From: a virus
DNA: 21,482 bases
Strand: one strand, 5' to 3'
IMG/VR virus record: IMGVR_UViG_3300024520_000554
Span: 1 to 21,482 of that record
The notes beneath the pieces were generated by a model that was not told the DNA's origin, did not search any database, and saw only the letters and a list, made by a program, of their open reading frames with translations. Made by a program: the position numbers and the translations under genes. Every line of letters begins with the position of its first letter. Position 1 is the first letter of the stretch. This document shows positions 3,769 to 20,128 of the stretch, piece after piece.

Positions 3769-3818
3769 TTCCTTTGCGAAGGAAAGAAGGGGCGGCAGCG
3801 GGAGACTTAAACCGCCCC
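3769..3818 (+). promoter_or_regulatory. two tandem hairpins ahead of the prim-pol gene
   Basis: TTCCTT (3769-3774) and AAGGAA (3779-3784) form a perfect 6-bp stem with loop TGCG. It is followed by GGGGCGG (3789-3795) and CCGCCCC (3812-3818), a perfect GC-only 7-bp stem. No U tract follows either. They lie in the largest gap within an otherwise gapless operon, so attenuation, mRNA processing or translational control are all possible. Confidence 0.5.
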
Positions 3819-3827
3819 GGTAATAAT

Positions 3828-5294
3828 ATGATAAACAAATTTAATAATGGGGATGCACCCAATACGTATGAACACTGGATAGATTTAGGTAGAATCATAA
3901 TTCCATGTTTAAAAGGGAGGCCAATAGTAAAAAATTGGCAAGACTCCAGTTTTAAAATATCGAAAGAAGAATGGAAAAAGAAATACACTCACTGTGCAAT
4001 AGGATTGAGATTAGATCAAGATATTGATTTTGATATCGATAATGATTTAACGAAAAGATTCATAGAAACTTATGTAAAAACTTCTGGTAGTATATTTGGT
4101 CGTGATAGTAACCCTTCAAGTCATTATATTTGGAAGGGTAAATTAACTTTTAAACAATTTATACTACCATCAGAATTAAAAGATCATTGTAAAAATTTAC
4201 CACATGGAACAACACTTTGTGAAATAAGAACTGAAGCAAAACATTATACTATAGTTCCTGGATCAAAACATAGCAAAGCAAACGAAAACGTAAGATGGGA
4301 AAAATATGAAGGCATCAATGAATATCCAGGTAATTTAAACACTGATTTAAGAAAAGTAGCTCTCTCTACTGCGTTATGTATTCTTTATGCTCCACAAGGT
4401 CAAAGGGACACCTATTGCACTGCAATTGCAGGTGTGCTCCTCAAACACACCAATTGGAGTGAAGAAGAAATCAATGAATTTGTTTATAATCTAGCTCTCG
4501 AATCTGATGATAATGAAGCAGAAAAGAGAAAATCTAAAGGTTCCAGTGGTAAAAAAGCAAATAGAAATCTTGGTCTACCAAAACTTGCTGAAATAATTGG
4601 ATGCTCTACAAGAGCCGTTGCAGAATTATTTAGCTGGGTTGGAGTTGAATATGCAGCAGGAAAAGAAATTGCACAGGAAGCAGTTGGAGACATTATTGAG
4701 TATGGTCATGATAGATACATAGTTAAAGTAAATGCATTTATTAATGGTGTGTTAAAAGAAAAAGAAATTAGAATAACTGGACCAACGCTCAAGAAACAAG
4801 AGCCTTTCTATGATGAAGTAATTGCACAAGCATCGGTCTGGATTCCTAAAATGAAGGGTCCAGAGTTTGAAAGGATTATGATGCAGAAATTTAATAACAG
4901 GACTCAATCAGAAGATTATGTAGAAGAAGCCAATGAAGATCTTGTCTTCATAAAATACTTTGCTCAGTATATTAAAAAAGAACAAGCTTTTTCAGATAAA
5001 ATTAATTTACTTGAATACAAACGTCCACATTTCAATATGACAAAAAGATCTTTAGAATTTAATCTAGATTCTTTTGAAGATTTTTTAGTAGAAAAAAGAG
5101 TGAAGATTAAAAGGGTAGACCTTGTTATGAACATACAAAGAATATTAAAAGCTAAAAAATATCATGGGAAAGTTAAAAATAAGTCTTGTGTGTCTTGGAG
5201 AATAGAAGAATATGATTTAGCAAAAGAGGATCTTGTCATCGATGGAGAATATGAAGAAGCCAAAGAAACAGAAAGGATAACAGATGGAACCTAG
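3828..5294 (+). CDS. bifunctional primase-polymerase (prim-pol, AEP superfamily)
   Basis: 488 aa from ATG 3828. A TTG at 3774 would add 18 residues but lies inside a hairpin and lacks a Shine-Dalgarno. The N-terminal third fits the prim-pol domain: a buried IIPCLKGRPIVKNW segment, the metal-binding motif DFDID (67-71), the SH motif in GRDSNPSSHY (91-100) and the third motif CEIR with E132 followed by TIVPGSKH. Such enzymes make primers and can extend them. The C-terminal 300 residues carry no Walker A motif, so unlike many phage prim-pols it is not fused to a helicase; the adjacent SF1 helicase may supply that function. A FINGVLKEKEIRITGP segment at about 307-322 looks like a beta-rich subdomain. 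It overlaps the helicase gene by 11 bp. Confidence 0.85.
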   Translation: MINKFNNGDAPNTYEHWIDLGRIIIPCLKGRPIVKNWQDSSFKISKEEWKKKYTHCAIGLRLDQDIDFDIDNDLTKRFIETYVKTSGSIFGRDSNPSSHYIWKGKLTFKQFILPSELKDHCKNLPHGTTLCEIRTEAKHYTIVPGSKHSKANENVRWEKYEGINEYPGNLNTDLRKVALSTALCILYAPQGQRDTYCTAIAGVLLKHTNWSEEEINEFVYNLALESDDNEAEKRKSKGSSGKKANRNLGLPKLAEIIGCSTRAVAELFSWVGVEYAAGKEIAQEAVGDIIEYGHDRYIVKVNAFINGVLKEKEIRITGPTLKKQEPFYDEVIAQASVWIPKMKGPEFERIMMQKFNNRTQSEDYVEEANEDLVFIKYFAQYIKKEQAFSDKINLLEYKRPHFNMTKRSLEFNLDSFEDFLVEKRVKIKRVDLVMNIQRILKAKKYHGKVKNKSCVSWRIEEYDLAKEDLVIDGEYEEAKETERITDGT

Positions 5295-7014
5295 ATTTAT
5301 AGTTGGACCACCAGGAACAGGAAAAACACATAAGAGGATAATTAAACTATATAAAGAATGTTTTCCTAAGTATACTCCAGAGAAAATAGTACTGCTTTCT
5401 CACACGAACGTTGCTGTTGGTCAAATCCTAAATGCAATAATGAAACTTAAAGAAGTAAAAGGATACACAAGAAAAGATTTTGAGGACCGCATATGCACCA
5501 TTCATCATTACTGTAACCATAAAATTATGGGAAACAAAGGATTATTTTCAAATGAAGATTTGAGAGGTTTATGTATAACGGAAGATGGAAGAGGATTTCG
5601 TCAAAGTAAAGAAAGAGACGTTGAAAAACATCCTGTCCTTAATTTTATTAAAGATGCTCGAGGTCATGGAAGAGATTTAGATAAACATTGGAATCATTCA
5701 AATACAGATAAAAAAGATTTACTTGAGGCAAATTATAATATTGAAAATATAAAGGAATTAAACCAAGCGTATAAAGATTATAAGAACGATAAGGAAAATA
5801 GATTACAAGATTTTGCGGATATGATTGATGAGTTTAATTCTTTAACTAAAGAATCTGATGTCGAAGTTTTAATTGTTGATGAGGCTCAAGATTCTAATGT
5901 TCCTCAGCTCAAAGCCATTAAAAAAATAGCTAAACATGTAATAGATGGCCATTTTTATTTAGTTGGAGACCCTGATCAAACAATTCATGAGTATGCCGGA
6001 TCAGATGCTGAATGGTTTCATAAAGCTGCAGCTCATCCCTACGATGAATTAGAGCAGGGGCTTAGATGTGGCCGTGCTATTAACGAATTTTGTAAAAAAA
6101 TCATAGCCCCTATATGGAAACATTATGAATATGAAGGTGGTGGAAGAACCTGGTTACCAGCCGTCTATAATAAAAAATATCACGAAATACCAGAGGGATG
6201 TAAGGAGGGAGATATTATAGAAGGACATAAATATGAATTAACAGACCTTAAGCCTTCAAAAAATTTAGACATTCTTATAAATAAAATGAGAAACACTAAA
6301 CAGAGTTTTATATTTTCTTTCAGAGGAACTCCTAGTCATAAACTTGTAACTAAATTTCTACAGCACTATGGTTTTGAATATGCCCGTGTAGATAACAGTG
6401 CTTATGTTTCAAAAAAAGAATTAAGGTGTCATTTTGAATGGCCTAAATTTATGAAAGGAGAACCTAAAAGTTTCAACCAAATAAAAGACTTCCATTTTTA
6501 TTTAGGACGTAAAGCTTTAATACATGGCGCAGGAAAAGAAGACTTTAAGGAATGGATCAAGAAAGATTACACTTATAGTGAATTAGTAAAAAATAAATTT
6601 TTTAAACCTAACCTAGATAAAGAATTTGATCTTCTCAGAAAAGAACGTGACAGTGATCGAATGATTTATATAAAGAATGTTTTAAGAAGAAAAGTGGATT
6701 GGGATGAAAAAATCAGAATTAAATATGGAAATATACATAAAGTTAAAGGAAAAACTTTTGATAATGTAATTGGAGATTTATCACTATACAGACCCGAATC
6801 TTGGTTTGCACAGCGTAGATTAGCCTACACAATGTTTAGTCGAGGTATTTTTGATGTATGGGTTTTAAAAACCCAATCAGGGAAAGAATTAGGAAACTAC
6901 GGTCCCGTTCCTATTAGAAGACCAAGGTCAATGGATGAAGATCAGTTTCACCGAAGATGGAGACCAGATTGGAATGAAATTGAAAACCCTAACAATAATG
7001 ACAGGAGAATATGA
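5284..7014 (+). CDS. UvrD/PcrA-like superfamily 1 DNA helicase
   Basis: 576 aa with a complete SF1 motif set: GPPGTGKT (8-15), motif Ia LLSHTNVAV (37-45), motif II DEAQD (199-203), motif III GDPDQTI (228-234), an EQGLRCG motif IV-like element, motif V HKVKGKTFDN (about 485-494) and motif VI RLAYTMFSRG (512-521). It should unwind DNA using ATP, probably 3'-5' as in UvrD/PcrA. It is shorter than UvrD (about 720 aa), with reduced 1B/2B subdomains. Its start overlaps the prim-pol stop by 11 bp and its stop overlaps the DUF3310 start by 4 bp, so all three are probably translationally coupled. With no DnaB-type helicase in view it may act at the phage replication fork. Confidence 0.92.
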   Translation: MEPRFIVGPPGTGKTHKRIIKLYKECFPKYTPEKIVLLSHTNVAVGQILNAIMKLKEVKGYTRKDFEDRICTIHHYCNHKIMGNKGLFSNEDLRGLCITEDGRGFRQSKERDVEKHPVLNFIKDARGHGRDLDKHWNHSNTDKKDLLEANYNIENIKELNQAYKDYKNDKENRLQDFADMIDEFNSLTKESDVEVLIVDEAQDSNVPQLKAIKKIAKHVIDGHFYLVGDPDQTIHEYAGSDAEWFHKAAAHPYDELEQGLRCGRAINEFCKKIIAPIWKHYEYEGGGRTWLPAVYNKKYHEIPEGCKEGDIIEGHKYELTDLKPSKNLDILINKMRNTKQSFIFSFRGTPSHKLVTKFLQHYGFEYARVDNSAYVSKKELRCHFEWPKFMKGEPKSFNQIKDFHFYLGRKALIHGAGKEDFKEWIKKDYTYSELVKNKFFKPNLDKEFDLLRKERDSDRMIYIKNVLRRKVDWDEKIRIKYGNIHKVKGKTFDNVIGDLSLYRPESWFAQRRLAYTMFSRGIFDVWVLKTQSGKELGNYGPVPIRRPRSMDEDQFHRRWRPDWNEIENPNNNDRRI

Positions 7015-7343
7015 ACGTCTATAAAAAACAAATAGGAGGATCCCATTACAAGAACATGGTGGTTCAGCCGAGTGAGTTTATAAACAAGAACAAATTGCAA
7101 TTTGCAGAAGGAAATGCTATTAAATATATCTGCAGACACGCACATAAAGGAGAAATTCAAGATTTGGAAAAAGCAAAACACTATATTGATATGATTATTG
7201 AAAGAGATTACGGTGATCATACTAAACCTTTACCTTATGGTTTTACTTTAATTAAACCAAAAGATCCGGACATGACTCCCATGACAGAAGAAGAAGAATA
7301 TCGTAATGCAGGGATTACTAAAGAAGAGGCAGAGAAAAAATAA
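7011..7343 (+). CDS. DUF3310 family protein
   Basis: 110 aa. The N-terminal half matches the DUF3310 pattern well: GGSHYK (9-14), a QPSEFI element, EGNAIKYICRHAHKGE and DLEKAKHYIDMIIER. The family is common in phage replication modules and is sometimes annotated as nucleotide-kinase-like, but its biochemical activity is not established. The C-terminal 40 residues are Glu/Pro/Lys-rich and probably flexible. ATGA coupling with the upstream helicase and a one-base overlap with polA place it in the replication operon. Confidence 0.9.
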   Translation: MNVYKKQIGGSHYKNMVVQPSEFINKNKLQFAEGNAIKYICRHAHKGEIQDLEKAKHYIDMIIERDYGDHTKPLPYGFTLIKPKDPDMTPMTEEEEYRNAGITKEEAEKK

Positions 7344-9400
7344 TGTGTTCAGCTCCACAACTAATCGATCTTGATTTAAAAGGGATTGATACCGTTGCAG
7401 TTGACTTGGAAACTTATGATCCAGATTTAAAAGATAAAGGGTCAGGAGCAGTACGAGATAACGGTTGGGTATGCGGTATTGCTATAGCCACTGGTAAACA
7501 AACACTTTATTTTCCTCTTGATCACAAAGAAGTCAAGAATATTCCTTCCGAGGAAGCATGGAAGTATCTTAACGAAAAATTATTTCAAAACCCTAATATT
7601 AAAAAAGTATTTCATAACGCCATGTATGATGTCTGTTGGATTCGTAAAGAATCAGGACTCATGCCTCACGGACCACTGCTCGATACAATGGTCGCTGCTT
7701 CAATTATTAATGAAAACAGAATGAAGTATTCATTAGATTCTCTCAGTAAAGACTACTTAAAAGACAAGAAATATAAATACGATTTAAAGGAAAAAAGTCA
7801 GGCTGCTCCTTATTTTATCAATGATCCGATGACTAATATGCACAAACTCCCTTATGAATTGGTAAAAGAGTATGCAGAACAAGACGTTAATTTAACTCTA
7901 CGTTTATGGAGACACTTTGAAAAAAAATTAAATCAAGAAGAAAAAGTGGAAATTGGAACACCAGATGAAAAAGTAAAAACTTTAAAATCTATTTTTGAAT
8001 TAGAGACTGCATTATTCCCCTGTCTTGTTGATATGAGGTTTAAAGGAGTTCGAATTGATATTGAAAGAGCCAAGAAATTTGGAGAAAGACTAAAGAAAAC
8101 TAAAAATAATATAGTTGAGTATATTAAAAGAAGAACAGGAATTAAAATTGAGATCTGGGCAGCAGCCTCTATTAAAAAACTTTTAGATAAATTAAAAATA
8201 AAAGATTATAAAACTACACCGAAATCTAATTTACCTCAATTACCTAAAGATTATTTAAAAACTCATAAGAATCATTTCATAAGATTAATTGCTAAAGCTA
8301 GAGAGTTTGACAAAGCAAAAGGCACTTTTGTTGAAGGTCTTTTAAAATTTGTTCATAAAGGAAGAATTCATGCTGATATTAATCAAATTAGAGGAGAAAA
8401 AGGTGGAACTATTACGGGACGATTCTCAATGTCTAATCCAAATTTACAACAAATTCCAGCCAAAGGTTTTATTGGTAAAAATATGCGAGCACTATTTCTT
8501 CCTGAAGAAGGATGCTCGTGGGGTTCTTTCGATTACTCTCAACAAGAGCCAAGAATCGTTGTTCATTATGCTTTGAAATTGAAAATGAAAGGGACAGAAG
8601 AAGTAGTTGAATCTTATCAAGAAGATCCGAACGCAGATTTTCATCAAATCGTAGCAGACATGGCTAAAATACCACGGATCACGGCTAAAACAATTAATTT
8701 AGGTTTATTTTATGGCATGGGTAAAAATAAATTGGCCCAACAACTTAATCTTGACTATACAGAAGCAAAAGAATTATTTGATAAATACCATCAGAGAGTT
8801 CCTTTTGTAAAACAACTTTCTTCTAGCTTACAAAAATACGCTGAAAGAAATAAATTTCTTTACACACTGGAAAATAGATTTTGTCGTTTTGATAAATGGG
8901 AACCCATTCGTAAGAAATGGAACCCTAAAGAGAAAAAATTTGTAATCAAAGTAGAAGAAGATAAAAAAGATAAGGATGGTAAAGTTGAGAAAAATAAGGA
9001 TGGAAAAGTAAAGAAAATCCAAGTAGAAAAACCTGTACCACTATTGTCTGAAGAAGATGCTAAAATTCATTATAAGTCTGAACTATCTGATAAAGGATAT
9101 CCTCCTGATAAAGAATGCGAAAATTTTGAAAACTTTTATCGTCCTGCGTTTATATACCGAGCATTAAACAAATTAGTTCAAGGAGGTGCTGCAGACATGA
9201 CCAAAAAAGCAATGGTCTTGTTATATAAGAAAGGTATTTTACCTCATATTCAAATTCATGATGAATTATGCATTTCTATAACTGATAAAGAGCAAGCTGA
9301 GAAGATAAAGGGGATTATGAGAGAGGCAATTAAACTTGAAATCCCTAATAAAGTAGACTATGAATCAGGACCCAATTGGGGTAATATCAAACCCGAGTAA
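7343..9400 (+). CDS. polA: family A DNA polymerase (Pol I-like) with 3'-5' exonuclease
   Basis: 685 aa replicative polymerase lacking the 5'-3' nuclease domain of bacterial Pol I. Exonuclease motifs are DLE (D21, E23), HNAMYD (Exo II) and YAEQD (Exo III), so proofreading should be active. Polymerase motif A is FDYSQQEPR with catalytic D397, where the usual form is DYSQIELR; motif B is RITAKTINLGLFYG; motif C is HDE (639-641). The residue matching E. coli Phe762 is Leu453. A Lys/Asp-rich insertion at about 535-565 lies between motifs B and C. Surveys of marine viral PolA linked Leu at this site to slower, more accurate synthesis and proposed temperate-type lifestyles. Start follows the DUF3310 stop directly. 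Confidence 0.96.
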   Translation: MCSAPQLIDLDLKGIDTVAVDLETYDPDLKDKGSGAVRDNGWVCGIAIATGKQTLYFPLDHKEVKNIPSEEAWKYLNEKLFQNPNIKKVFHNAMYDVCWIRKESGLMPHGPLLDTMVAASIINENRMKYSLDSLSKDYLKDKKYKYDLKEKSQAAPYFINDPMTNMHKLPYELVKEYAEQDVNLTLRLWRHFEKKLNQEEKVEIGTPDEKVKTLKSIFELETALFPCLVDMRFKGVRIDIERAKKFGERLKKTKNNIVEYIKRRTGIKIEIWAAASIKKLLDKLKIKDYKTTPKSNLPQLPKDYLKTHKNHFIRLIAKAREFDKAKGTFVEGLLKFVHKGRIHADINQIRGEKGGTITGRFSMSNPNLQQIPAKGFIGKNMRALFLPEEGCSWGSFDYSQQEPRIVVHYALKLKMKGTEEVVESYQEDPNADFHQIVADMAKIPRITAKTINLGLFYGMGKNKLAQQLNLDYTEAKELFDKYHQRVPFVKQLSSSLQKYAERNKFLYTLENRFCRFDKWEPIRKKWNPKEKKFVIKVEEDKKDKDGKVEKNKDGKVKKIQVEKPVPLLSEEDAKIHYKSELSDKGYPPDKECENFENFYRPAFIYRALNKLVQGGAADMTKKAMVLLYKKGILPHIQIHDELCISITDKEQAEKIKGIMREAIKLEIPNKVDYESGPNWGNIKPE
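8970..9017 (+). repeat. 24-bp imperfect tandem duplication inside polA
   Basis: ATAAGGATGG begins each of two adjacent 24-bp units (8970-8993 and 8994-9017), which encode two copies of a KDGKV-type peptide in a charged insertion between polymerase motifs B and C. It is in frame and looks like a local duplication within a flexible loop. Confidence 0.7.
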
Positions 9401-10243: not shown

Positions 10244-10298
10244 ATGGTGGAAAAAATTTAAAGAATGGTTCTGGAAAGATTTTTATGGAAGGGACTAA
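10236..10298 (+). CDS. 20-aa Trp/Lys-rich microprotein
   Basis: Starts at ATG 10236 behind GGAGGAAGAAA and ends at TAA 10298. The peptide (MNKWWKKFKEWFWKDFYGRD) is strongly amphipathic, with four Trp, three Phe and six Lys, resembling membrane-surface or antimicrobial-type helices. It overlaps the genes on both sides by 8 and 14 bp. The Shine-Dalgarno supports translation; function is unknown. Confidence 0.5.
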   Translation: MNKWWKKFKEWFWKDFYGRD

Positions 10299-10416
10299 GT
10301 GTAAGCACTGTAACTGTAATTGCCACTGTTCTTTAAAAGAACATAGCGATCTGTACGGTGTATGCAGTTGTAAAGGCTGCGAACATGAGTTAGAAGAGTG
10401 TGAAACATGTCAATAG
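10285..10416 (+). CDS. 43-aa Cys-rich metal-binding-like microprotein
   Basis: Ten of 43 residues are Cys and four are His, arranged as CxxCxCxCxC near the N-terminus (KCKHCNCNCHC, Cys 6, 9, 11, 13, 15), then CSCKGC (27, 29, 32) and CETC (39, 42). This looks like a metallothionein or compact zinc cluster rather than a standard zinc finger. GGAAAG 5-10 bp upstream may serve as ribosome binding site. It overlaps both neighbours. Such density of Cys is unlikely to arise by chance in an AT-rich out-of-frame stretch, so I consider it real; what metal it binds is not known. Confidence 0.65.
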   Translation: MEGTKCKHCNCNCHCSLKEHSDLYGVCSCKGCEHELEECETCQ

Positions 10417-10520
10417 ACGAAGAAAAAACTTGCAATATGCATACCAAAGAAAAAGAAAAATCAGGTACATGTTGTCAAATAAAAAACGAAGAAGAAAAAA
10501 CAGAGGAGCCAAATGAATAA
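10407..10520 (+). CDS. 37-aa acidic/lysine-rich small protein
   Basis: Overlaps the Cys-rich gene by 10 bp and the following lipoprotein gene by 8 bp. The product begins MSIDEEKTCNMHTKEKEK and has an isolated CC pair, with Glu and Lys making up about half of the residues. GAAGAG lies about 7 bp upstream. It is probably a disordered peptide; no function can be proposed. Confidence 0.45.
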   Translation: MSIDEEKTCNMHTKEKEKSGTCCQIKNEEEKTEEPNE

Positions 10521-10674
10521 ATTATATTTAGTTCTTGCACTATTATTTGCATTAAGCGCCTGTTCGGTAGGCAAAAAATGTACCTATACACAAGATGGAA
10601 CGAAACTCTCATCTTATGTATGGTTTTTTAATGGTGACAAGCCAATTGATTTAGACAAAAACAACTGTACTTAA
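10513..10674 (+). CDS. 53-aa small lipoprotein
   Basis: MNKLYLVLALLFALSACSVG is a classic lipoprotein signal: basic start, hydrophobic core and LSAC lipobox with lipidated Cys17. The mature part is about 36 aa with three more Cys-containing positions or close (KKC, NNCT end). GAGG precedes the start at a good distance. It opens the block of secreted proteins. Size and class would fit an outer-membrane spanin or an entry-exclusion lipoprotein, but sequence gives no proof of either. Confidence 0.75.
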   Translation: MNKLYLVLALLFALSACSVGKKCTYTQDGTKLSSYVWFFNGDKPIDLDKNNCT

Positions 10675-10690
10675 GGGTTTATGGAAATTG

Positions 10691-16668: not shown

Positions 16669-16843
16669 ATTTGCACTCATTATGAGTGGATCAAGTATTG
16701 CCATAAGTCAGAATGCTTACGTGAAAGCCTATAATAGTGTGGACGTACTAACCATTATGCATTCAGACAAAAGTATAAAGAAACATATTTATGATAAAGG
16801 AAAAAAACATGTACAAACCCTTACCCGAATCACTAACCGTTAA
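16625..16843 (+). CDS. small lipoprotein, out of frame with zinc gene
   Basis: 72 aa from ATG 16625. Upstream in-frame ATG 16535 would put a charged stretch before the signal, so the shorter form is preferred. MILFTTLIFVSSCTEF is a lipoprotein signal with VSSC lipobox (Cys13). The mature part has a small-residue patch (MSGSSIAISQNAYVKAYNS) and a Lys/His tail. It overlaps the zinc gene by 44 bp and the SET gene by 35 bp. I recall similar short lipoproteins in marine phages. Function unknown. Confidence 0.65.
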   Translation: MILFTTLIFVSSCTEFALIMSGSSIAISQNAYVKAYNSVDVLTIMHSDKSIKKHIYDKGKKHVQTLTRITNR

Positions 16844-17102
16844 ACAAAGTGGTATTAATGGTTTAGGACTCTTTGCTGATCAGAAGGTCATGCAAGGAAC
16901 CAATTTCGGTGTGTCTCATTACAAATTCAACGGTGATATTATCCGCACTCCTCTTGGAGGATTCATCAATCATTCTAACACTCCGAACGTCGTTAAGGTC
17001 GAACTTAAAGATAATAAATATAAAAAATGGAACCTAGTTACTCTCAAAGACATTGAAAAAGGGGAAGAGGTAACCATACGTTATACGTTTTATAATATAT
17101 GA
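16809..17102 (+). CDS. minimal SET-domain protein (putative lysine methyltransferase)
   Basis: 97 aa from ATG 16809, chosen because AAAGGA lies about 8 bp upstream; ATG 16791 would add six residues. Recognisable SET elements are GINGLGLFAD (16-25), the key GFINHSNTPN (51-60, matching the NHSxxPN SAM/pseudoknot motif) and DIEKGEEVTIRYTF (81-94) with the C-terminal Tyr92. No pre-SET or post-SET Cys cluster exists and the insert between the halves is very short. SET enzymes transfer methyl from SAM to protein lysines; substrate here is unknown. It ends ATGA-coupled to a membrane peptide. Confidence 0.82.
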   Translation: MYKPLPESLTVKQSGINGLGLFADQKVMQGTNFGVSHYKFNGDIIRTPLGGFINHSNTPNVVKVELKDNKYKKWNLVTLKDIEKGEEVTIRYTFYNI

Positions 17103-17675: not shown

Positions 17676-17833
17676 AAGACCGGATCTTATATTTTATTGA
17701 AGAATGGGCCGAGAAGCTTCATGCATGGGCTTTTAATAAACGCTATAAACGACTAAAGAAACGTGCAAAGGATCCGAATGAATGGATCAAGGGTTATAAA
17801 GAGTGGAAGACGCGCTATGAAAAAAAATACTAA
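17672..17833 (+). CDS. 53-aa basic Trp-rich protein with TTG start
   Basis: Starts at TTG 17672 overlapping the previous TGA, with a convincing AAGGAAAGG at 17659-17667; no ATG is available in frame before residue 54. The product (first residues MKDRILYFIEEWAEKLHAWA) is amphipathic, ending in a Trp/Lys-rich KDPNEWIKGYKEWKTRYEKK. I recall homologous-looking short proteins before the same exonuclease in marine phages. It overlaps that exonuclease by 17 bp. Confidence 0.65.
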   Translation: MKDRILYFIEEWAEKLHAWAFNKRYKRLKKRAKDPNEWIKGYKEWKTRYEKKY

Positions 17834-18551
17834 ATACAATTATGTCCGTGGTTCACGGTCCACGGATCACGGCACACGGACCTATCAGGTCAGTGGATTT
17901 AACTTGCCTTCTGTTACAACCATCCTTAATAAGACCAAGGATCAAAGTTTTTTAACCAAATGGAAAGACCGAATCGGTCATGACGAAGCGCAAAGAATAT
18001 TCAACCTATCTAGTAAGCGGGGCACTGCCATGCATAAGTTCTTGGAGAAACATATCGAAGGGTATGGGTACCAGGACCTTACGGACATTGGTCGTCAAGC
18101 AGCTCCGATGGCTAAGAAAATTATTGACGTAGGACTCGCACCGGTATCTGAATACTATGGGAGTGAAGTGACTCTATACTATCCGGGTCTTTATGCGGGG
18201 ACCACGGATCTTGTGTGTAGGCACAACGGCATGGACACCATTGCAGATTTTAAACAGTCAAATCGCCCAAAAGAAGAAGAATGGATTGAGGATTACTATC
18301 TGCAGATTGCAGCATATGCCATGGCTCATGACTATATTCATGGCTCTAACATTGAACAAGGCATCATAATGGTATGTACTCCTGACCTATATTACCAAGA
18401 ATTCAAGTTTTCCGGGCTTATTTTAAGGGACTGGAAACATAAATTTTTAAAAAGATTAAATGAGTATTATGAAATTATAAAAGAACCCCCTGTAGATCAA
18501 AAAGAATTATTAGCAGAATTTGAAGAAAACAAAATTAAGGAGGACAAATGA
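17817..18551 (+). CDS. PD-(D/E)XK exonuclease, RecB/MGME1-like
   Basis: 244 aa from ATG 17817; an earlier in-frame ATG at 17763 would add 18 basic residues lying in the preceding gene. Motifs are LPSVTTILNKT (30-40), RGTAMHKFLEKH (68-79, with H73), E117, GTTD (128-131), DFKQS (144-148) and YYLQIAAYA (160-168), the standard order of a RecB-type nuclease with Asp131, Asp144 and Lys146 as metal-site residues. It resembles the mitochondrial MGME1 single-strand exonuclease. Likely acts in recombination or flap removal alongside PolA. A heptanucleotide repeat encodes residues 11-22, just ahead of the conserved part. Confidence 0.9.
   Translation: MKKNTKYNYVRGSRSTDHGTRTYQVSGFNLPSVTTILNKTKDQSFLTKWKDRIGHDEAQRIFNLSSKRGTAMHKFLEKHIEGYGYQDLTDIGRQAAPMAKKIIDVGLAPVSEYYGSEVTLYYPGLYAGTTDLVCRHNGMDTIADFKQSNRPKEEEWIEDYYLQIAAYAMAHDYIHGSNIEQGIIMVCTPDLYYQEFKFSGLILRDWKHKFLKRLNEYYEIIKEPPVDQKELLAEFEENKIKEDK
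17847..17881 (+). repeat. heptanucleotide tandem repeat YRYGGNN
   Basis: Five 7-bp units: CGTGGTT, CACGGTC, CACGGAT, CACGGCA, CACGGAC. The first five bases are nearly fixed and the last two vary. TCCGTGG (17845-17851) and CCACGGA (17860-17866) also form an inverted repeat across it. It lies in frame within the variable N-terminus of the exonuclease gene and is GC-rich compared with its surroundings. Confidence 0.75.
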
Positions 18552-18769
18552 GAGAAGCAGGCACAATGAGGGAAAGAATTTATAAAGCCCTAGTTGCACA
18601 CTATACAGCTGAACAAGAAACTGCGTTGGTTAAGATCGATGCACTCTTAAAAGGAGATGTTATACCAGGACACACGGCTTTGACGGAAGATATTGATAAG
18701 CTCCTAGGTAAAGTAGCTGATGCAGCTGAAAAGATGGCAACATTAAAACGTTATTACGGAATGAATTAG
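18548..18769 (+). CDS. 73-aa helical conserved phage protein
   Basis: AAGGAGGACAA precedes the ATG, and the start overlaps the exonuclease stop by 4 bp. Two helices, RERIYKALVAHYTAEQETALV and ALTEDIDKLLGKVADAAEKM, suggest a coiled-coil hairpin. Likely a small phage accessory factor acting with the exonuclease, based only on coupling. It is the last gene before the large repeat cluster. Confidence 0.72.
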   Translation: MREAGTMRERIYKALVAHYTAEQETALVKIDALLKGDVIPGHTALTEDIDKLLGKVADAAEKMATLKRYYGMN

Positions 18770-18802
18770 GTCAATTGTGTCCGAAATATGGCAAAGATAG
18801 AG

Positions 18803-19072
18803 GTGTCGAATTGGTGTCGGCGAGGTGTCGGCGAGGTGTCGGCGCCGACACCTAAAGTGTCGGCAAATGCCTTTTTGGGTCAAAGTTACCCCGAATTGCC
18901 GACACTGCCGACACTTTGCCGACACCCTGCCGACACCAATTCGACACTTACTAATTTCGACTATTCGTCTACTCTAACAACGATAATAGGAGATTATTTT
19001 TAAAAGCCGACACTTTGACTGGATTTTTTAGCGCAAATGAAATAAAAATATTTTCTGTATATAGGTGTCGGC
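18803..19072 (+). repeat. GTGTCGG/CCGACAC repeat cluster with nested inverted repeats
   Basis: Eleven copies of a 7-mer occur within 270 bp: GTGTCGG at 18814, 18825, 18836, 18857 and 19065, and CCGACAC at 18845, 18899, 18908, 18919, 18930 and 19007. The first three are exactly 11 bp apart, as are the last three of the inner right block. GTGTCGAATTGGTGTCGGC (18803-18821) is matched by its perfect reverse complement at 18929-18947. AGGTGTCGGCGCCGACACCT (18834-18853) is a perfect 20-bp palindrome. GCCGACAC/GTGTCGGC (18844-18864) is a third stem with TTTTT at 18872-18876. No convincing gene lies in the 323-bp gap 18770-19092. Confidence 0.9.
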
Positions 19073-19092
19073 AATTGAATTGAGGCAAAATT

Positions 19093-19383
19093 ATGGCAAA
19101 GAAACGTAAAAAAACTAAATACCGTCACGTGGTGATCAATAAGAAAAAATATTATTTTTATAAGATCTCCTGGGTGGATATTACAGCGGATGGGGGACAC
19201 GCTACCGCTGAGGAGTTTGATAAGTTTGAGTGCTCAAAGCTTATTTCGTTTGCGTACATCTATAAACGTACTAAGAAATTCATTTGGACTTTTGCGAGTT
19301 ATGATTCGAAGGACGAAGCTTATTCAGATAGGAATATCTTTCCTATAGGTGTTATAACTGCTATAGAGAAGAGAAATGTTTAG
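19093..19383 (+). CDS. 96-aa conserved small phage protein
   Basis: After a basic start (MAKKRKKTKYRHV) comes a beta-rich body: KKYYFYKISWVDITADGGHA, FAYIYKRTKKFIWTFASYD and NIFPIGVITAIEK. The YKISWVDI...FAYIYKR...TFASYD pattern is familiar from uncultured marine phage genomes but unnamed. GAGGCAAAATT lies upstream of the ATG (19080-19092). It is the first gene after the repeat cluster. Function unknown. Confidence 0.75.
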   Translation: MAKKRKKTKYRHVVINKKKYYFYKISWVDITADGGHATAEEFDKFECSKLISFAYIYKRTKKFIWTFASYDSKDEAYSDRNIFPIGVITAIEKRNV

Positions 19384-19543: not shown

Positions 19544-20128
19544 TTATATCTTTACTACTACTGACTGTGGTATTGACTTATTGCCTTGTCTTGAACCTTT
19601 ACTAGATGGTAGCTTTTTGGTTTTGCTTTGTTTTATTTTTAATTTTTGTTTGGGTAGTTTTTCATTGGGAGGAGTAACATTTAAAATCGGTGCGTAATCG
19701 TCTAAAATTTGTTTCATTTTCGCTTCTAGTTCTTGCTCTGACATATCTTCTAATTTCCCATGTTTTATTATTTTTCGTTCTATGTATAATCCTGCTGCCT
19801 TGCCTCGATTTGTTTCTGCGTTTACTGCAGAGGAGAAGCTCCCTTTCTTTAAAGCGAGTTCTTTTATCCGAGCAAGTTCAGCCACATGTTCATCATAACT
19901 CACAGCGAACTTCTTAAGTCTTTCTTCTTTGAGTTTACCTACATACTGTACTACTAAAGGACTGAGTCTAGGATTCAGGAGTTCTGATCCTTCTGATCTT
20001 GCCCTCTTAGAACTATAGCCAGCCGCTATGGCTGCTTCACCTTGAGTCATAGGTCCATCTACTCCTCCGAATACTACGAACTCGGCGAATCTCATTTGCA
20101 TTTCAGTTAATCTCTTAGGAACACCCAT
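19544..20128 (-). CDS. terS: terminase small subunit
   Basis: 194 aa on the minus strand. The N-terminal 60 residues match the Terminase_2-type DNA-binding domain: LTEMQMRFAEFVVFGGVDGP, TQGEAAIAAGYSSKRARSEGSELLNPRL with the QGEAAIxAGYS helix-turn-helix core. A central helical oligomerisation region (KLKEERLKKFAVSYDEHVAELARI) and a Lys/Ser-rich tail follow. TerS recognises the pac/cos site and recruits the large terminase, which is not in this window. It is one of only two minus-strand genes, with its own divergent promoter region. The overlap with no other real gene and the clear domain make the call firm. Confidence 0.85.
   Translation of the reverse strand: MGVPKRLTEMQMRFAEFVVFGGVDGPMTQGEAAIAAGYSSKRARSEGSELLNPRLSPLVVQYVGKLKEERLKKFAVSYDEHVAELARIKELALKKGSFSSAVNAETNRGKAAGLYIERKIIKHGKLEDMSEQELEAKMKQILDDYAPILNVTPPNEKLPKQKLKIKQSKTKKLPSSKGSRQGNKSIPQSVVVKI

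Follow-up and report, generated by a model that had tools for sequence, protein, structure and literature searches.

The gap between the exonuclease gene and the terminase small subunit gene terS of this viral genome fragment holds a dense cluster of 7-bp repeats, and the question arises what function such a cluster serves. A preliminary description of the DNA had put forward a replication origin, a packaging signal and a cruciform or RNA hairpin. Here, the cluster was analysed in the window, i.e. the whole stretch of 21,482 nucleotides, and in related viral contigs. The window is one contig of IMG/VR, and its proteins group with those of HTVC027P and HTVC023P, two phages of Pelagibacter, and of phage 023Pt_psg01 (psg01). 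Judging from the comparisons below, it is likely that the element is an iteron-type replication origin of an HTVC023P-like podophage, with an initiator provided by the phage's own primase–helicase–PolA module.

Layout of the repeat cluster

The heptamer GTGTCGG or its complement CCGACAC occurs in eleven exact copies in the whole window. Every one of them lies within positions 18814–19071, and GTGTCGG is absent from the rest of the window. In 100 dinucleotide shuffles of the window, a mean of 0.57 copies and a maximum of 4 were obtained, which confirms the eleven-copy cluster of the preliminary description. The 11-bp phased runs reported on each side were also found, on the plus strand at 18814, 18825 and 18836 and on the minus strand at 18908, 18919 and 18930. 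A degenerate GTGTCG unit prolongs the first run at 18803, and another prolongs the second at 18942–18947. The left iteron array (18803–18842, plus strand) consists of four units 11 bp apart, GTGTCGaa at 18803 followed by the three GTGTCGG copies of the run, and the same inward array is present in relatives. A further plus-strand copy is located at its inner edge (18857–18863). The right array (18899–18947, minus strand) is inverted and contains CCGACAC at 18899, 18908, 18919 and 18930 and the degenerate CGACAC at 18942–18947.

Two isolated iterons lie further to the right, an exact minus-strand copy at 19007–19013 and the outermost plus-strand copy at 19065–19071. Between the right array and these copies an imperfect dyad, TCTAACAACGATAATA, is found at 18973–18988. 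An AGCGC box (19030–19034, plus strand) follows a T-run (TTTTTTAGCGCA) and adjoins an A+T-rich stretch at 19035–19060 (23 of 26 positions A or T), which is a candidate unwinding region. The iterons, the dyad, the AGCGC box and the A+T-rich stretch are all retained in the close relatives L187 and L289. Sequence inspection additionally revealed an outer degenerate unit, TATGGCAAAG, at 18787–18796 on the plus strand; TGGCA units akin to it were seen, again by inspection, about 11 bp apart on both flanks in many relatives.

The 20-bp perfect palindrome (18834–18853) and the outer 19-bp perfect inverted repeat (18803–18821/18929–18947) are present as described. Both belong to a larger 41-bp inverted repeat with 90% complementarity (18803–18843/18907–18947). 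The palindrome is formed by two iterons placed head to head (18836 on the plus and 18845 on the minus strand). It is kept in L187 and missing in L289, a contig that matches the window at 93% identity across 2.9 kb, and is therefore probably incidental.

The repeat copies are found in the interval 18803–19072 given previously; the functional element is wider and spans about 18785–19092, as indicated by the L187/L289 alignment and by its conserved place between the exonuclease gene and terS. It is flanked by a 73-aa gene (18548–18769) and a 96-aa gene (19093–19383). The gap had been regarded as the only large gene-free one. This does not hold at a threshold of 60 aa for open reading frames, since the interval 10244–10687 is larger (444 versus 323 bp). 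A 71-aa reading frame overlapping the element (18788–19003) is probably spurious, and its matches in relatives reflect the repeats. Upstream of the exonuclease gene, positions 16791–17102 encode a small protein that appears SET-domain-like by eye and matches only PHROGs without known function.

Recurrence in relatives and coupling to the replication module

Several hundred viral contigs were gathered by searches with the exonuclease, TerS, a 237-aa ferredoxin-family protein and the repeat itself. A similar element lies between the exonuclease gene and terS in more than 200 of the related contigs and in HTVC027P and psg01. Comparison across relatives, as suggested in the preliminary description, thus shows that the element recurs at the same place and is not peculiar to the window. 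The recurring order is exonuclease, 73-aa gene, element, 96-aa gene and, on the opposite strand, terS; the 73-aa gene is sometimes missing or set apart. In the contigs L006, L008, L012, L018 and L043, at least about 0.6 kb of additional DNA separates the exonuclease from the 73-aa gene and likely represents optional genes.

The repeated 7-mer, hereafter the word, varies between genomes and is uniform among the copies within one genome, isolated copies included (185 unique intervals). Examples are GTGTCGG, GGGTCGC, GTATCGG and CCCTCGC, which contain TCG (TCG class), or TGGACAT, GTACACT, TTGTACC and TGCTTCA. At the same place, the units are GTTTCAC/GTGTTACA in HTVC027P and GGCACAC in psg01. In HTVC023P the exonuclease gene is located elsewhere, but the gap preceding terS contains CTAGGAAAA repeats (L207:11672-11780), two of which are 11 bp apart. 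Some non-TCG elements (L006, L014 and L016) are bounded by long inverted repeats, e.g. CTATATAGAGATGTGGGA...TCCCACATCTCTATATAG, with CGCGCGCG inside. The freshwater phage DSL-LC04 has a 36-nt inverted repeat of 83% around a CGCGCGCG stretch near terS (L208:6563-6765), which is perhaps the same kind of element. A nucleotide search with the element against named phages gave no match.

The replication genes of these phages occupy one genomic slot, which is filled by one of two module types, type A, with a prim-pol, a UvrD helicase and PolA like those of the window, or type B, resembling HTVC027P and psg01. The module type is marked by DNA polymerase A (type A in the window, 7343–9400, plus strand), with a PolA identity of 57–62% for type A and mostly 41–49% for type B. 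Word class and module type were compared in a strict set, for which a contig must hold both flanks of the element. L471, discordant in the first word-class table, and L447 were excluded, as both contigs end before the element. With the word class assigned by a simple 7-mer script on contigs that are mostly fragments, TCG arrays were found in 14 of 14 type A and 0 of 22 type B genomes of the strict set (Fisher p 2.6e-10, uncorrected for kinship). The count for type A becomes 15 of 15 once genome G027 is added; its exonuclease (49%) and TerS (51%) are distant and B-like, yet its module is of type A and its element carries a TCG word.

The module types are mixed on the exonuclease and TerS trees, where module type changes 8 and 9 times, respectively, and word class equally often. 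The scatter of module types over the TerS tree is like that in shuffles, whose mean is 9.7–9.8 changes, and the word tracks the module at each of the 9 changes. The well-supported independent pairs, four on the exonuclease tree and two on the TerS tree, are all concordant; kinship correction on well-supported branches yields 4 independent contrasts (sign test p 0.125), which alone are too few for significance. Word class follows the replication module and not the neighbouring genes, as neither the exonuclease gene on the left (17763–18551, plus strand) nor terS on the right (19544–20128, minus strand) co-varies with the word.

Natural exchanges between near-identical contigs display this coupling directly. 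L542 (type A) and L556 (type B) share recT at 98.3% and then differ in type in the primase, the helicase and most of polA. Beyond polA, they agree again over 5,314 bp at 96.9%, running through the exonuclease and the 73-aa gene. The element itself is unrelated over 331 bp and is followed by the 96-aa gene at 77%. In the pair L468 (A) and L464 (B), the polA types differ, the exonuclease side is 87.6% identical, the element is unrelated, and despite this replacement the 96-aa gene (p19093) and terS are 86.5% identical in DNA. The same pattern is seen at lower identity in L489/L475; for both of these pairs the agreement is limited to the parts that their contigs cover. L446 and L447 have identical exonucleases within a 5.5-kb stretch of 98% identity and differ in polA; L447 gives no evidence on the word, since its contig ends before the element. 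The contigs come from different metagenomes, so a single assembly error cannot explain the exchange pattern. The element has a conserved place and its own word in each genome, and it is replaced together with the primase–helicase–PolA module.

The anatomy of the element also differs between the classes. The gap between successive copies on one strand was scored in 106 genomes of the TCG class and is exactly 11 bp in 361 of 567 cases (64%). The arrays face inward in all 62 scorable TCG elements, and the dominant 7-mer differs between the two arms in 50 of them. Type B elements show other phasing, with gap peaks at 12, 9 and 18 bp; they are heterogeneous, and in some the repeats are few. AGCGC is present in 87.5% of the TCG elements (shuffled 23%), where it lies behind a T-run within the A+T-rich flank, versus 0.9% of the non-TCG elements. 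CGCGC or GCGCG occurs in 68% of the non-TCG elements (shuffled 4.5%). The dyad has the family consensus tATACCAAcgcTTaTA and accompanies both module types. It scores above the 95th percentile of shuffles in 77% of the elements of the TCG class and in 63% of the others.

Candidate reader of the word

The L542/L556 exchange leaves the primase, the helicase, a small interval gene and polA as candidates for the protein that reads the word. The type A prim-pol primase is encoded at 3774–5294 (plus strand) and has a C-terminal domain at about residues 268–490, with a winged-helix-like part at 388–480. The UvrD-like SF1 helicase (5284–7014, plus strand) is the second candidate partner. We infer that the C-terminal domain of the primase rather than the helicase may read the iteron word, and it is regarded as the leading candidate. 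In a profile comparison, the A and B primases match in the C-terminal domain only (303–484 versus 325–497, E 9e-18). The primases of the genomes G030 (L600:4371-6050) and G033 (L603:5538-7223) combine a B-type catalytic domain with an A-like C-terminal domain and, as judged from their sequences, represent a natural domain swap. The word of G030 is CCCTCGC, with a TCG core, and the catalytic domain is therefore excluded as the reader. The C-terminal domain is inseparable from helicase and polA in G030, because both are also type A there. In L566 (740-4013), a contig without the element, the primase is 93% and the helicase only 62% identical to that of the window; the helicase is thus exchanged or evolves independently of the primase.

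The AlphaFold model of the window primase has a pLDDT of 81, and the order of its predicted secondary structure suggests a winged-helix-like fold at about 388–480. Assignment to the prim-pol fold agrees with Foldseek matches to phage prim-pols in BFVD (best E 1e-14) and a weak match to a PHROG DNA primase. No match was obtained in a Pfam search or in a sequence search against PDB chains, and in the PDB Foldseek matched the primase model to none of the solved structures at E <= 0.001. The model of the helicase is of good predicted quality and shows no obvious extra DNA-binding domain. TerS, p19093 and the exonuclease were considered as readers and rejected because none of them co-varies with the word. 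The recT-like protein was likewise rejected, being 98% identical in L542 and L556 although the word changes.

Origin reading, alternatives and known systems

Features by which an iteron origin is recognised are found at this locus. Several copies of one short motif are phased and clustered at a single intergenic site, an A+T-rich region adjoins them (19035–19060), and changes of the motif go together with changes of the replication proteins that the replicon itself encodes. The coupling would be read as direct recognition combined with origin function. We propose that a phage initiator from the primase–helicase–PolA module would bind the GTGTCGG-type iterons of the inward-facing arrays, with one iteron on each helical turn. 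The bound initiator would open the adjoining stretch of T-run, AGCGC and A+T-rich sequence, where primase and helicase could be loaded. The distance of about 13.5 kb between the element and the primase gene was counted against this reading. The GC-skew check proposed earlier was run on HTVC027P, psg01 and the 57.8-kb G001 and proved uninformative. GC skew cannot decide the origin, because skew follows the gene strand and the four-fold sites of the three genomes are flat, with no skew switch and no origin signal.

Among the options of the preliminary description, the origin is well supported by the coupled replacement with the replication module; the packaging and hairpin options are disfavoured. 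A packaging start site (pac or cos) would be bound by the terminase small subunit, the ring contacting one site per helical turn. Pac sites are often located near terS, which the element adjoins, and the 11-bp phasing would fit DNA wrapped on a ring. However, site specificity does not follow TerS. The protein is 85–86% identical to that of the window in L351/L415, L354 and L460, all with unrelated words, and just 71–81% identical in many genomes with TCG words. Moreover, the element is replaced beside the terS of L468/L464, and each of the nine changes of module type on the TerS tree coincides with a change of word class. A packaging site is therefore very unlikely. An operator or regulatory region for early or late transcription, whose regulator would be a product of the replication module, is unlikely. 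A regulator swapped along with the module would yield identical coupling, and the element is intergenic, with isolated extra sites and a promoter-like TATATAG near 19058–19062; the word cluster is, however, confined to a single place in the window, and no dedicated regulator was found alongside the primase, the helicase, polA and the small interval that make up the segment replaced between L542 and L556.

The 41-bp inverted repeat of the window and its nested palindromes could suggest that a long hairpin or a cruciform, formed by RNA or single-stranded DNA, is the active structure, similar to the stem-loop origin of pRN1. This is highly improbable, as complementarity of the arms is neither conserved nor compensated. 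The arms carry different dominant 7-mers in most scorable elements, the palindrome is lost in L289, and the isolated copies beyond the arms carry the same word. An Rfam search of the DNA gave no match and a tRNA search found nothing. Centromeres of the RHH/ParB type consist of phased short sites, which the iterons resemble, and the dyad could be a recombination core. A parS-like partition or recombination site unrelated to replication start nevertheless has a barely appreciable probability, since the coupling is to primase, helicase and PolA and searches of the window, which is a genome fragment, revealed neither partition nor integrase genes.

An iteron origin read by its own replication module has partial counterparts. 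The alpha protein of phage P4 is a primase-helicase acting at the short iterons of ori and crr. The likeness lies in a phage-encoded primase-helicase and short iterons; alpha is, however, one protein whose primase domain is of the bacterial (Toprim) type, whereas in the window the primase is an AEP and the SF1 helicase has a gene of its own. The AEP prim-pol of phage NrS-1 starts on a specific template sequence and is likewise a phage enzyme, but the window primase has no sequence match to PDB chains. A structure of the NrS-1 enzyme is available (PMC7102993). ORF904 of pRN1, which has been compared with P4, is an AEP prim-pol with a C-terminal winged helix and uses a stem-loop as origin (PMC4234260). 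The window primase shares with it the AEP prim-pol type and, in a predicted model, the winged helix; the pRN1 origin lacks iterons and ORF904 carries its own helicase domain. In SCCmec, the initiator helicase Cch2 and the primase-polymerase CCPol-MP act at intergenic direct repeats (PMC7581432). There, the separate Cch2 binds a short direct-repeat region through its C-terminal domain, whereas in the phages the arrays are long, face inward and lie at a great distance from the genes, and their reader is only a candidate. In the PLE satellites of Vibrio cholerae phage, the origin varies together with the DNA-binding domain of RepA, and the exchange of modules takes place under attack from an origin-directed nuclease (PMC8263062). 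PLE uses a RepA_N initiator and semi-palindromic iterons of about 30 bp; in the present phages, the iterons measure about 7 bp and recur with an 11-bp period, the module consists of prim-pol, SF1 helicase and PolA, and the number of word classes is much higher.

A broader reading is possible, though doubtful. The origin word could be a freely exchanged code, read by a C-terminal domain on unrelated catalytic domains and replaced with its matching origin across kilobases of unchanged DNA. This would give many mutually exclusive specificities in one population, perhaps selected by origin-directed nucleases or satellites. It is speculation that a conflict of the PLE kind drives the word change in these phages.

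Literature searches found no described replication origin for HTVC023P-type pelagiphages. These abundant phages now gain a concrete candidate origin. Since the element and the replication genes are exchanged together on either side of near-identical DNA, its partner can be narrowed down to three main proteins. The word classes provide natural variants for studying how a short-iteron initiator shifts its specificity. Their large number suggests a diversifying pressure on origins, as in the conflict between ICP1 and PLE.
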